Assembly (NCBI RefSeq): GCF_020880975.1
Contig: NZ_JAJIWP010000001.1
Location: 806,001 to 870,000, forward strand
Source: Mucilaginibacter sp. UR6-1
Lineage (GTDB): Bacteria; Bacteroidota; Bacteroidia; Sphingobacteriales; Sphingobacteriaceae
Reading direction: 5' to 3'
DNA length: 64,000 bases
The position numbers and the translations under genes were made by a program. The notes beneath the pieces are model-generated. The model was not told the DNA's origin. It ran no database searches and saw nothing but the letters and a program-made list of their open reading frames with translations. Below, piece after piece: positions 33,360-39,079 of this stretch. The stretch's first letter is position 1, and each line of letters begins with the position of its first letter.

Positions 33360-34595
33360 TTACACCAATTCGGCTGCTTGCGTTTTTGCCGTAGCTAAGC
33401 TGACCCCTGTTAGCTGATCGGCGAAAGCGATAAACGCTTTACTATCAGATATACGGGATTGATTCGAGATCAGATTTTGCAGATTTACTTTTCCGATAAC
33501 ATATTTAAAACCGTCGGATACGTAGCGTTCAAATATATGTTCAAAGCCAAGCTCTTCAACAAGGCTTTCATCTGTATAGCGCAGGTAAACCGTTAGTTTA
33601 ATATCGTTGGTAAATGTAAGGCTGCCTTTTTCTTTGGCTTTTTTGTACTCGTAATGGTAATCATAACGCAGTGCCGCAACATCCGAAAGTACGGCTGCAC
33701 CCGTAGGATGGCCACCCGCGCCTTTACCGAAAAAGAATTGCTGATCAGCAAAAGCAGCCTGTACTATTACGCCGTTGTACTCGTATTCTACATTATATAA
33801 AAACTCGCTTTCGTTAACCAATTTGGGCAGTACAAACAAAGCCACGTGGCGGTCGTCAAGCTCTTTGGCAACCGGTACCAACTTTATTTTCAGATTTTTT
33901 TCGCGGGTATATTGCAGGTCATTGGCCGATAGGTTTTGGATACCAATGTTTAATACTTCTTCGGGTTTTACAATTACCCCGTAAGCATGCGCGGCGGCTA
34001 TCACCAGTTTAAATTTGGCATCATAACCACCAACATCCATGGTTGGGTCGGTTTCGGCAAAGCCCAAATCCTGTGCCTGCTTTAAAGCGCTTGCGTAATC
34101 CAGATTTTCCAGATAGCCTTTTGATAGTATATAGTTTGATGAACCATTGAAGATACCGCATATTGAGTGCAGCAATTCATTATCGTAATATTCTTCAAGG
34201 TTACGGATGATAGGTATACTGCCGCAAACCGCGCCTTCATAAAGTAATGATGTGCCGTATTCGTGCTGTATAGCCAATAATTCATCAAGGTAAGTGGCGA
34301 TCATTTTTTTACTGGCTGATACCACATTCTTACCTGATTTCAGGGCTGTTGATACGATCTCAAAAGCGGCGTCGGTTTCATTGATCAGCTCGATCACTGT
34401 ATTTATTTCCGGATTATTCAGTATCTCATCCCTGTCGGTAGTAAAAAGCTCGGCAGGTAGTGTACGTTTTTTTTCAGGGTTTTTAATAGCGATCTTAACG
34501 ATCTCAAGGTTCAGGTTCTTTGTTTTTATGATGTCATATAAACCTTGTCCAACTACGCCAAAACCAAATAATCCTATAGTAAGTTTCTTGCTCAT
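33360..34595 (-). CDS. hom: homoserine dehydrogenase
   Basis: A 411-residue enzyme reducing aspartate semialdehyde to homoserine. Seen: IGLFGFGVVGQGLYDII (NAD(P)-binding), VVSASKKMIATYLDEL, LLYEGAVCGSIPIIRNLEEYYDN, GIFNGSSNYILSKG and GFAETDPTMDVGGYDAKFKL with the catalytic region. There is no fused aspartokinase. It is the last gene of metY-metX-hom, overlapping the metX stop by one base (TAATG), which couples translation. It supplies the substrate of MetX. Confidence 0.95.
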   Translation of the reverse strand: MSKKLTIGLFGFGVVGQGLYDIIKTKNLNLEIVKIAIKNPEKKRTLPAELFTTDRDEILNNPEINTVIELINETDAAFEIVSTALKSGKNVVSASKKMIATYLDELLAIQHEYGTSLLYEGAVCGSIPIIRNLEEYYDNELLHSICGIFNGSSNYILSKGYLENLDYASALKQAQDLGFAETDPTMDVGGYDAKFKLVIAAAHAYGVIVKPEEVLNIGIQNLSANDLQYTREKNLKIKLVPVAKELDDRHVALFVLPKLVNESEFLYNVEYEYNGVIVQAAFADQQFFFGKGAGGHPTGAAVLSDVAALRYDYHYEYKKAKEKGSLTFTNDIKLTVYLRYTDESLVEELGFEHIFERYVSDGFKYVIGKVNLQNLISNQSRISDSKAFIAFADQLTGVSLATAKTQAAELV

Positions 34596-35650
34596 TATGC
34601 TATACGTTGCAATTCAATAATTTTTCCCTTTACGTCAGTTTTCAGGAATGATGTAATAATATTAGTTAGTGCTTCTGTTTCAATTAAAAATCCGTCGTGC
34701 CCGTAAAAGGAATCAAATTCGGCAAATGCCGCTTTAGGAATGTGCTGAAATAAATAACGCTGCTCATCAATCGGGAATAACACATCGGATGTTATGCCGA
34801 TAACCAGCGTTTTAGCCTTGATAAGGCTCAACGCCTTATCTACACCGCCACGGTTACGGCCTACGTTGTGCGAATCCATTACCTTGCTTAAATACCAGTA
34901 ACTGTAGGCATTATAACGGTTAACCAGTTTTTGGCCCTGGTAATTTTGATAACTGGCTGATTTGTATCCGTCGGTAAGGCTATCACTATCTTCCTGCTGG
35001 GTTATGTTGTAGGTTTTATAACCACGGTATGATAGCAGGGCTATGCTGCGTGCAGCCTTCAGACCGGCAGATCCGCCCTGCGGCGTATTTTCATAGAATG
35101 TAGGGTCGGCGCTGATAGCCAGGCGTTGCGACTCATTAAAGGCAATACCCCATGCCGAATGTTTGGCATTGGTGGCAATCAGTATCAGGTTTTTTATCCT
35201 GTCAGGCTCAACAATAGCCCACTCCATAGCTTGCTGGCCGCCTAATGATCCGCCTATCAGTATATTTATCTTGTCTACGCCCAGGTGCCCGGCTAACAGG
35301 CGGTGTGCCTGTACCATATCACGAATAGTTATTTCAGGAAAATCAAGGTAATATGGCTCACCGTTCTCCGGATTTAAACTAAGCGGATGTGTGGTACCGT
35401 AAGGTGAACCTAAAATGTTGGCACATACTATAAAATGCTCATCCGGGTTAAAAAAATCTTCTGCACCAAACAGCCCCTTCCACCAGTCAAGCACATCTGA
35501 ATTAGCAGTTAGCGCATGGCATACCCAAACTACGTTGTCGCGGTTGGCGTTAAGCTTACCATAGGTATTAAAGCCAATTTCAAGTTCATGTAACTCCTTA
35601 CCACATTCAAGCGTAAATTTTTGTGTATACCTGTATATTTCAGTACTCAT
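34595..35650 (-). CDS. metX: homoserine O-acetyltransferase
   Basis: A 351-residue alpha/beta hydrolase-fold enzyme making O-acetylhomoserine from homoserine and acetyl-CoA. Seen: VWVCHALTANSDVLDWW, NILGSPYGTTHPLSLNP, the nucleophile elbow LIGGSLGGQQAMEWA with the catalytic Ser, an Asp in ITSDVLFPI and a His in FYGHDGFL. Its product goes to MetY, encoded just upstream. Acetyl rather than succinyl use follows from the MetX family, not from single residues. Confidence 0.95.
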   Translation of the reverse strand: MSTEIYRYTQKFTLECGKELHELEIGFNTYGKLNANRDNVVWVCHALTANSDVLDWWKGLFGAEDFFNPDEHFIVCANILGSPYGTTHPLSLNPENGEPYYLDFPEITIRDMVQAHRLLAGHLGVDKINILIGGSLGGQQAMEWAIVEPDRIKNLILIATNAKHSAWGIAFNESQRLAISADPTFYENTPQGGSAGLKAARSIALLSYRGYKTYNITQQEDSDSLTDGYKSASYQNYQGQKLVNRYNAYSYWYLSKVMDSHNVGRNRGGVDKALSLIKAKTLVIGITSDVLFPIDEQRYLFQHIPKAAFAEFDSFYGHDGFLIETEALTNIITSFLKTDVKGKIIELQRIA

Positions 35651-35726: not shown

Positions 35727-37049
<1,323 letters not shown>

Positions 37050-37158
37050 TTAATTTTTAAAAGGTTAATGTTTTGTTGTTTAGCACCAGGGTGTAGTGAT
37101 CCCTTATGGTTACACGCGTATTACAAAAAGTGAAGGTCAGCGTGCAAAATAGTGTGGC

Positions 37159-37251
37159 TTAGCAGCAACACATGCACATACAGCAACAACGGTTTAAACC
37201 ATATTGATTATACTGTAGTACGTTTTTGAGAATGCTAAATAAACTTTTCAT
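37159..37251 (-). CDS. Cys/Met-codon-rich leader peptide upstream of metY
   Basis: An unannotated 30-codon frame with ATG at 37251 and TAA at 37161-37159. It begins MKSLFSILKN and ends in CCCMCMCCC directly before the stop: seven Cys and two Met in the last nine codons. It starts 10 nt after the closing helix of the S-box aptamer and ends 121 nt before metY. The composition and position fit a leader peptide whose translation senses charged tRNA-Cys (and perhaps tRNA-Met). A metal-binding micropeptide is the alternative. I see no U-rich terminator between it and metY, so the output step is unclear. Confidence 0.65.
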   Translation of the reverse strand: MKSLFSILKNVLQYNQYGLNRCCCMCMCCC

Positions 37252-37261
37252 TTTGTTTGTT

Positions 37262-37374
37262 AATTTATATTTCCCGGGGTTATTCTTCCGGGGCAGGAAT
37301 TGGCACCTTCTTCAGTTGCTGAAGGGTTGCCAGCGGGTAATTGAGCCTGTTCTCTCGCCGCTTCTTTATAAACC
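37262..37374 (-). promoter_or_regulatory. S-box (SAM-I type) riboswitch for metY-metX-hom
   Basis: Read on the minus strand. P1 pairs 37367-37374 with 37262-37269. AGCGG pairs with CCGCT (P2), GAG with CTC (P2b, replacing the usual GGG/CCC). GCTGGCAACC is followed by the P3 hairpin TTCAG-CAA-CTGAA, and GGTGCCAATTCCTGC at 37307-37293 is the classical S-box core. P4 is CCCGG/CCGGG. The junction after P2b (AATTAC instead of ATGAAG) departs from the consensus. It should bind S-adenosylmethionine. No terminator follows; the leader ATG is 10 nt away, so control of leader translation is possible. Confidence 0.8.
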
Positions 37375-37476: not shown

Positions 37477-38598
37477 CTAAAAACTTTCTAAAGCCTGTTT
37501 TATATCTGCTATCAAGTCGTCAATATGCTCCAGCCCGACAGATACACGCAGCAGACTAAACGGCGTTTTGGTGTCAGGCCCCTCAACCAGCGCGCGATGC
37601 TCTATCAAGCTTTCAACGCCGCCTAAACTGGTAGCCTGGGTAAACAACTTGAGGGCATTAATAACTTTGCTTGCTTCATTTTGCCCACCTTTTACTAAAA
37701 AGGATAACATACCACCATATAAACCCATTTGTGCCGAAGCCAGTTCATGTTGCGGATGCGAAGCAAGGCCCGGATACATCACCCTTTCTACTTTTTCGTG
37801 ATTTTCTAAAAAATCCGCGAGCCGCTGTGCATTATATACATGCCCGCGAACGCGGTATGGCAATGTTTTAATACTCCGCACCAAATAATAACAATCAGCA
37901 GGCGAGGGTATAGCGCCGCCCATTTCCTGTACCTGGCGTATCTTTTGCCACCAATCATTATCCTCAGCCGTAATCAAAGCGCCACCCATAAGGTCGCTGT
38001 GGCCGCCAAAATATTTGGTGGTCGAGTGCATCACCAGGTCGGCACCTAAGGCGAGTGGCTGCTGGCATAATGGGGTGGCAAATGTATTATCGCTTACCAC
38101 TTTTATACCTTTAGCATGGGCTATAGCAACTACCTTTTTAATATCAGTAAGCTTTAATAAGGGGTTTGATGGCGTTTCTATCCAGATAACGCGGGTGTTA
38201 GGTTTGATGTGTTGTTGCAAAACGCTTTCATCGTTTACATCAATAAAATCAAACTCCAGTATACCAGCAAACAGGTTTTTAATTTGGTTGCGCAGGCCAT
38301 GATACATATCATCAGGTAAAATAATATGTGTGCCCGGTTGCAGAGATTGAAATACGGCCATACCCGCCGCATTACCTGATGAAAATGCAGCCGCATCCGC
38401 ACCGCCTTCAATTTGAGCCAAAACATTCTCTAACGATGTACGGTTAGGGTTTGACGAACGACTATAAATATGCCCTGATGGGTATTGGCCGTCAGCATTC
38501 CTGGTAAAGGTTGTTGATGTGGTGATGGGTTGTATCACTAAACCCGAAGCTTTATCCGGATGGTTGCCGGCATGTATGGCAATGGTTTCTATCTTCAT
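37477..38598 (-). CDS. cystathionine gamma-synthase/lyase-type PLP enzyme (second copy)
   Basis: A 373-residue trans-sulfuration enzyme. Seen: IETIAIHAGNHPDKASG, YSRSSNPNRTSLENVLAQIEGG, FSSGNAAGMAVFQSL, HSTTKYFGGHSDLMGG with the PLP lysine, and SLGGVESLIEHRALVEG. It differs clearly from the copy at 22316-23458, so one may synthesise and the other cleave cystathionine. I chose ATG 38598 (MKIETIAIHAG); the frame extends 71 codons further but that part crosses into the promoter region of the divergent gene. It lies just upstream of the met promoter on the same strand. Confidence 0.9.
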   Translation of the reverse strand: MKIETIAIHAGNHPDKASGLVIQPITTSTTFTRNADGQYPSGHIYSRSSNPNRTSLENVLAQIEGGADAAAFSSGNAAGMAVFQSLQPGTHIILPDDMYHGLRNQIKNLFAGILEFDFIDVNDESVLQQHIKPNTRVIWIETPSNPLLKLTDIKKVVAIAHAKGIKVVSDNTFATPLCQQPLALGADLVMHSTTKYFGGHSDLMGGALITAEDNDWWQKIRQVQEMGGAIPSPADCYYLVRSIKTLPYRVRGHVYNAQRLADFLENHEKVERVMYPGLASHPQHELASAQMGLYGGMLSFLVKGGQNEASKVINALKLFTQATSLGGVESLIEHRALVEGPDTKTPFSLLRVSVGLEHIDDLIADIKQALESF

Positions 38599-38653
38599 AG
38601 CAATATTTGTAGCGTTCGGCGGTAAATGTACGTATTGATAAAAAACCTGAATA

Positions 38654-39079
38654 ATGAAAAATGCAATATTTGCTGTTTTAATAGCGGTTTCCCTTTTTGC
38701 ATGTAAAGCAACGCAGATTAGTAACAATGAACAATCTGTTGATCCTGAAAACCTAACCGGCCAGTGGGACTGGAAGCGAACCACCGGAGGCTTTGCCGGA
38801 ATAAACACCACGCCCGAAACCGCACGCTATATATTACATATTGAGTTTAAGAACAATGAACTGCTGTTTTATAAGAATAATGTGGTAACCCAGCAATACC
38901 ATTACACCATAACCAAAAACAAAACCATCTACTCAACTGAGCCGCTGTACATCATCAATCCTGATACCACTGTTAATGCCATACCGCTTGTAATTACCAA
39001 AATGGTAAAGGATACCATCATACTGGCTGATAATGTGAACGATGGGTTTTCATCAACCTATGTTAAAAGAACAAACTAA
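38654..39079 (+). CDS. small lipoprotein of unknown function
   Basis: A 141-residue protein with a lipobox ending at Cys17 (AVSLFACKAT). The mature part reads as a small beta-barrel of the lipocalin-like kind: NLTGQWDWKRTTGGFAG, YILHIEFKNNELLFYKN, YHYTITKNKTIYST. These repeated strand patterns match many small lipoproteins of this phylum. Divergent from the trans-sulfuration gene; no functional clue. Confidence 0.78.
   Translation: MKNAIFAVLIAVSLFACKATQISNNEQSVDPENLTGQWDWKRTTGGFAGINTTPETARYILHIEFKNNELLFYKNNVVTQQYHYTITKNKTIYSTEPLYIINPDTTVNAIPLVITKMVKDTIILADNVNDGFSSTYVKRTN

Follow-up and report, generated by a model that had tools for sequence, protein, structure and literature searches.

A SAM-I riboswitch stacked on a Cys-codon leader ORF upstream of metY-metX-hom in Mucilaginibacter: a proposed two-input leader RNA that recurs in Bacteroidota

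The metY-metX-hom operon of Mucilaginibacter sp. UR6-1 is preceded by a complete S-box (SAM-I) riboswitch aptamer and, immediately behind it, by a short leader ORF that ends in a run of Cys codons. This S-box/Cys-leader stacking recurs over several orders, across much of Bacteroidota, with the leader start codon held by P1, the closing helix of the aptamer. The original prediction of two stacked sensors is thereby supported. We lean towards a two-input leader RNA in which SAM and Cys act in series to control metY-metX-hom. The operon would probably be ON only if both SAM and Cys are short (NOR logic), a joint working of the two elements that we infer.

In the window (the whole stretch of DNA analysed, 64,000 nt), the operon is encoded by the minus strand. 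Its first gene, metY (35727..37037), codes for an O-acetylhomoserine aminocarboxypropyltransferase (TIGR01326, 674 bits, above cut-off), and is followed by a metX-like homoserine O-acetyltransferase gene (34595..35650; best model TIGR01392, E 1e-106) and a homoserine dehydrogenase gene (33360..34595; NF004976 above cut-off, PF00742). These profile matches agreed with the assignment of the S-box and leader to metY-metX-hom in the original prediction, although MetX scored below its curated cut-off. A gene for a cystathionine gamma-synthase/lyase-like (cystathionine-type) PLP enzyme (37477-38811) lies directly upstream of the S-box/leader region. The MetY product homocysteine can feed Met/SAM and, via reverse transsulfuration, Cys; a two-input mechanism thus fits the pathway.

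The S-box aptamer (37262..37374, minus strand), previously proposed from the letters of the DNA, was recovered by cmscan as a full-length match to RF00162 (model positions 1-108) that, at 79.5 bits and E 4.4e-17, exceeded the gathering score of 44.4. It was the sole Rfam match within the 64 kb, and RF00162 passed its gathering score in 30/30 distinct stacked relatives tested. That the S-box at this position is genuine can be taken as practically certain; its SAM binding and effect on expression are predicted from aptamer homology. With one Rfam RNA and an ORF as the other element, the window contains no second ligand-binding RNA domain, and the arrangement is not a tandem riboswitch.

The leader ORF (37159..37251, minus strand) starts with an ATG at 37251, 10 nt behind the aptamer end, and runs for 30 codons (MKSLFSILKNVLQYNQYGLNRCCCMCMCCC) up to a TAA ending at 37159; both the frame and its spacing had been predicted exactly so. 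The last nine codons, CCCMCMCCC (37162..37188, hereafter segment 1), comprise 7 Cys and 2 Met and are the proposed stall site. The frame was open in 28/28 distinct genus leaders, compared to 0/28 and 1/28 for the other two frames, and pN/pS was 0.32 in the last nine codons vs. 0.63 in the leader body (eight independent pairs within the genus, with few changes). Conservation of the leader frame in relatives had been set beforehand as the test able to refute the leader, and both the frame and its Cys end turned out to be conserved. A short ORF, ending in a run of pathway-related codons (Cys) that is conserved together with the frame, has the makings of an attenuator. We consider it very likely that the leader is selected and translated, and likely that it senses Cys. 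Of the 45 TGYTGYTGYTRA sites in the host genome, no more than a handful have a short ORF with an ATG start and a terminal Cys run.

The Cys-run end had been judged very unlikely by chance in the original prediction, with which 30/30 genus loci and the reverse-strand and shuffle controls (see below) agreed. A Cys run that arose by chance in an untranslated leader, for which nothing speaks beyond the low complexity of TGY repeats, is refuted by its conservation in relatives and by the same controls, its probability being negligible. A small peptide functional in itself, for example in metal or thiol binding through the Cys run, would be in line with the very Cys-rich end, but different lineages have unrelated peptide bodies under weak constraint, and the synonymous sites serve RNA pairing. 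We regard such a peptide as highly improbable. Met codons are enriched in these leaders as well. The AUG that precedes UGU takes part in the RNA pairing too, so that the Met codons were rejected as proof of Met sensing. Hence, from the initial proposal of Cys and Met sensing through translation, the Cys part was supported, whereas Met sensing in the window is ambiguous, because in AUGUGUU the AUG doubles as a pairing partner.

Across 149 genomes of the genus, we have looked for metY and inspected the sequence upstream of the best 30 matches. Each of these 30 loci presented an S-box core and, behind it, a short in-frame ORF with a Cys-rich end. In the same 30 loci, the leaders ended mostly in C-(I/M)-C-M-CCCC, with the Cys run at or beside the stop, and the distance from the leader end to the metY match was 102-142 nt. 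Twelve genus S-box loci located before a cysteine-desulfurase-like gene had no Cys-run leader; therefore, the leader goes with the gene.

Other genera were covered by a class sample of 85 metY loci picked by MetY similarity only, in which the families are non-independent, the counts being descriptive and the p-values optimistic. An S-box was detected by cmscan in 48/85 loci. Cys-rich leaders, defined as short ORFs with at least three Cys among the last 10 residues, were present in 32/48 metY loci with an S-box vs. 9/37 without it (Fisher p 1.7e-4, kinship ignored). Among the first 36 class loci, a Cys-rich leader was found in 19, with the reverse strand giving 1/36 and shuffles 1.3%. Met was more frequent in the last 18 residues of leaders from metY loci without an S-box (mean 3.6 vs. 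2.0, p 0.02; nine leaders only), as exemplified by QMHRMHHCMCMCCMCM. It is a suggestive reading that the S-box, where present, has replaced Met codons as the Met/SAM input. At six metY loci without an S-box (L191, L194, L209, L211, L290, L291), the leaders mix many Met and Cys codons, e.g., MNQYSRHTSTQMHMTMCSMHQMMCCCCMHGCMC. One further locus (L208, 375-477 minus / 648-772 plus) showed, on the opposite strand, a borderline SAM-II match (44.8 bits, cut-off 44) beside a clear SAM-I upstream of metY.

The pattern used to scan 84,980 species genomes demanded a final CCC plus stop, and the scan consequently shows spread, not conservation; the conservation counts given here were drawn from the metY-based samples and not from the 87 stretches that the scan returned. 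We have read 80 of these stretches, of which 77 were in-frame Cys leaders, 76 of them in Bacteroidota-labelled records or unlabelled MAGs. The one exception was a Rickettsiales-labelled MAG (PBTY01000042.1) with a stacked S-box and a Cys leader ending in CCCCCCC, which is probably a mislabelled Bacteroidota bin. Three out-of-frame matches (a MAG labelled Anaerolineales, Phormidesmis, and Chryseobacterium) were discarded as chance; leaving the Rickettsiales-labelled MAG aside, both scan records labelled as other phyla than Bacteroidota were among them.

The position of the leader start codon relative to the aptamer is shared by distant loci. The ATG was found 2-15 nt behind the aptamer end in 30/32 Cys leaders of the class sample (median 9), with two outlying gaps of 21 and 92 nt, the latter probably resulting from a mis-chosen start. 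The gap was 5-13 nt in 27 of another 30 loci from several orders, and in the three exceptions the script had chosen an in-frame ATG further upstream. The closing helix therefore sits beside the leader start codon in relatives, as had been pointed out for the window. Even where a Cys-rich leader was missing, 10/16 S-box loci had a short ORF whose start lay 6-10 nt past the aptamer.

Bacteroidota do without Shine-Dalgarno sequences: A at -3, -6, -12 and -13 aids initiation, structure near the start hinders it, and bS1 is thought to touch about -12 to -15 (PMC6847099). In the window, the P1 3' strand and the A-rich spacer behind it (37252..37270, minus strand) form the proposed SAM-gated ribosome-binding region of the leader, with the P1 3' strand lying ~8-18 nt before the leader AUG and overlapping the expected ribosome-binding footprint. 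Because P1 covers the stretch used in Bacteroidota initiation, the natural reading is that a SAM-closed P1 hinders the leader start. From the earlier idea that SAM may gate leader translation, the placement of the start codon by P1 was found to recur; gating of leader initiation by SAM through a closed P1 is read from this geometry and seems probable to us. The two elements could instead be mere neighbours, the S-box using its own platform and exerting no control over leader translation, and Cys leaders without an S-box as well as S-boxes without a Cys leader do exist. Such independence is nevertheless unlikely, given that 30/32 loci of many families have their start codon 2-15 nt from P1 and that there is no room for a separate S-box terminator ahead of the leader ATG.

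Some of the ORFs behind S-boxes depart from the Cys-run form. Those at L204 and L259 are Met- and Cys-rich yet under the Cys threshold. At three S-box metY loci (L269, L271, L286), ORFs of 13-17 aa starting 10 nt behind the aptamer carry a C-M pair instead of a Cys run and read QQCMPPAKW, QQCMSSGAY and RRCMPPRAA, respectively; these are possibly another leader or arrest-peptide kind.

Behind the leader stop, we have delimited three elements on the minus strand. Segment 2 (37142..37158), the complement of the Cys codons (ACAC, UGCAC), lies just after the stop and is partly shared with hairpin H1 (segments 2:3, 37110..37147), and hairpin H2 (37084..37108) stands before metY; both hairpins belong to the MFE fold. 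In most of the genus, the last codons are AUG UGU UGC UGC/UGU, and an AACACGU located 5-8 nt behind the stop can pair with AUGUGUU. The same AACACGU is the 5' arm of H1 (AACACGU..UUUUC/GAAAA..ACGUGU), to which H2 follows. H1 was conserved in a 42-sequence genus alignment (RNAalifold z -3.4, 0/100 column shuffles), with mostly wobble-compatible changes; RNAalifold had revealed almost no structure in the first, loosely aligned set, and the stricter set yielded H1. The second hairpin recurs in relatives as judged by single-sequence folding. A search for a common downstream structure outside the genus found none (mean z -1.0).

When the TGT/TGC choice was randomised with the peptide kept, the tract paired less strongly with the post-stop segment (42 sequences, Wilcoxon p 2e-5), and a reversed-segment control had no effect (p 0.99). 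Thus, the Cys codons of the genus appear tuned to their RNA partner, as expected for an attenuator. The duplex of the Cys tract with the downstream region, tested against shuffled downstream sequence, was weak (median p 0.28). In the clade of the window, an inner Cys-codon hairpin (37171-37152) adjoins H1 (37147-37110) and the MFE fold contains both, only the extended stem GUGCA/UGCAC (37177-37173 with 37146-37142) competing with H1. Exclusive structures involving the Cys codons were hence supported in the genus and are just partly exclusive in the window. In constrained folds of relatives, H1 formed with a modelled ribosome on the Cys tract; a modelled ribosome at the stop codon led to loss of the H1 base in L051 and L118, but not in L054; the direction of these changes is that expected from the two-input scheme. 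In the free fold, the leader start (UUUAGCAU) can also pair with GUGCUAAA behind H2 (in the window, ~37231-37244 with ~37072-37085, minus strand), and this UUUAGCAU/GUGCUAAA pairing was not general among relatives.

According to the two-input scheme, high SAM would leave the aptamer bound and P1 closed, ribosome binding would be hindered and the leader would stay untranslated. The empty Cys-codon tract (segment 1) would then be free to pair with the post-stop segment into the 1:2 OFF hairpin, which is probably a terminator in those relatives having a U-rich stretch behind. With low SAM and sufficient Cys, the leader would be translated to its end and the ribosome would depart, giving again the OFF state. 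With low SAM and short Cys-tRNA (perhaps also Met-tRNA), the ribosome would stall on the terminal Cys codons and mask the tract, segment 2 would join H1, and transcription or translation would proceed into metY-metX-hom.

How this scheme would produce its output is the least firm part. Termination at the 1:2 hairpin is our tentative choice, held with somewhat less than even confidence. A consensus scan found no intrinsic terminator before metY in the window. In a custom search for a stop-spanning hairpin with a U-run, candidates appeared in 6/19 relatives tried and none in the window, and the U-runs behind segment 2 were frequently 4 nt off the stem in relatives. The lack of an intrinsic terminator in the window would also suit a translational output, in which the Cys leader would work without premature termination, through coupling, re-initiation or a refolding close to the metY start codon. 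For some stand-alone Cys leaders of the genus, the gap to the next gene is as short as 50-90 nt and holds complements of the tract, and a similar proposal exists for the mycobacterial polycysteine sORFs, the M. smegmatis case being termed translation attenuation in a 2026 paper (PMC13236596). However, the stretch just before metY is A/U-rich and mostly unpaired in folds, and H1 and H2 intervene between leader and metY, making a translational output possible but rather doubtful. The third route is Rho-dependent attenuation, where an untranslated (SAM-bound) or fully translated leader would expose the RNA to Rho and a stalled ribosome would shield it. It would be compatible with the missing intrinsic terminator and with the pyrimidine-rich stretches behind the leader stop, but would leave the conserved H1 and the tuned Cys codons unexplained, and we deem it quite unlikely.

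Cys leaders occur elsewhere in the genus. The exact motif ATGTGTTGYTGYTGYTRA was present 0-2 times per genome in 61 genus genomes, 29 of which carry it, with the reversed control occurring once. Apart from metY, the genes behind its sites code for TonB-dependent receptors, an AhpC/TSA-like protein, a PhyH-type dioxygenase and an S10 peptidase, most of these additional sites lacking an S-box. A second stacked type in the genus consists of an S-box, sometimes a thioredoxin/TlpA-like gene, and further on a Cys-run leader ahead of a SusC-like TonB-dependent receptor gene, with the leader ~100-800 nt behind the aptamer (L006, L009, L010, L013, L016, L019, L021, L023, L024, L028, L031). The host genome itself has two stand-alone Cys-run leaders without an S-box, MTTQNIIGSIMRMPLCQGVMCCCC before an S10 carboxypeptidase gene (G000:C6:701198-701215; L176, L251) and MKLFLHTSHPVKFPAASPKGYMCCC before a TonB receptor gene (G000:C10 near 5960; L224). 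In other species of the genus, Cys-run leaders stand before genes for PhyH-type dioxygenase, AhpC/TSA-like proteins and TonB receptors (L229, L233, L238, L240, L244, L234, L245, L246), and a complement of their Cys tract is often found just before the next gene.

The original statement that no case of such stacking had been described was too strong, since the SAM-I/T-box(Met) tandem RNAs that precede metX and metY (PMC9481103) and the Salmonella mgtA leader (PMC6460261) share its logic. The former, like the present RNA, place a SAM sensor and a tRNA-charging sensor in series before the same genes, ON when both products are short; their second sensor is a tRNA-binding RNA for Met, whereas the present RNA uses a presumably translated ORF with Cys codons, at whose start codon the aptamer sits. 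In a text search, leader peptides and uORFs were unmentioned in that tandem-riboswitch survey (PMC9481103). The mgtA leader, with a Mg2+ riboswitch and the Pro-codon ORF mgtL (PMC6460261, citing Park et al. 2010), likewise joins a riboswitch and a codon-reading leader ORF within one 5' UTR. It differs in ligand and codons, its ORF overlaps the Mg2+ sensing structure, it has no metabolite aptamer and it belongs to Enterobacteria. The SAM-I/AdoCbl tandem riboswitches that precede metE (PMC9481103) resemble our proposal in their NOR logic with SAM as one input, and differ in having two aptamers and two expression platforms and no leader peptide.

As for the reading of Cys codons, mycobacterial polycysteine leaderless sORFs are reported in citing papers to attenuate downstream sulfur genes in response to Cys (Canestrari et al. 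2020). They are short ORFs with Cys runs as here, but with a leaderless start, no riboswitch and in another phylum than the Bacteroidota system. The ORF described here is probably not leaderless, a full S-box being directly upstream of its ATG on the same strand. In Rhodobacterales, cysS is preceded by the uORFC-8-2 motif (PMC8632094), a uORF as well, with tandem Cys codons, exclusive stems and a proposed Cys-tRNA attenuation. That motif has just two Cys codons and a clear U-run terminator, lacks a riboswitch and belongs to a different gene than the present leader. Within Bacteroidota, suspected cases of attenuation by a leader peptide exist for Flavobacterium psychrophilum and B. thetaiotaomicron (PMC9723704, PMC7366714). 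In a limited literature search, we came across neither a SAM riboswitch combined with a Cys-codon leader nor an attenuator ORF with an aptamer fixed at its start codon.

We see about even chances for a Bacteroidota-wide class of SAM riboswitches whose direct output is initiation on a regulatory leader ORF 2-15 nt behind P1, making a SAM/Cys-tRNA gate, with S-box-less lineages using the same leader with Met and Cys codons. If true, the riboswitch would be an on/off gate for a ribosome-based attenuator, one short RNA reading first a cofactor and then tRNA charging, and SAM-I riboswitches would have a clear translational platform in a phylum without Shine-Dalgarno sequences. In Mucilaginibacter, a wider Cys-leader regulon is indicated, including TonB-dependent receptors and a peptidase. 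The arrangement would, if true, provide a model of how Bacteroidota weigh Cys vs. Met/SAM when spending sulfide.
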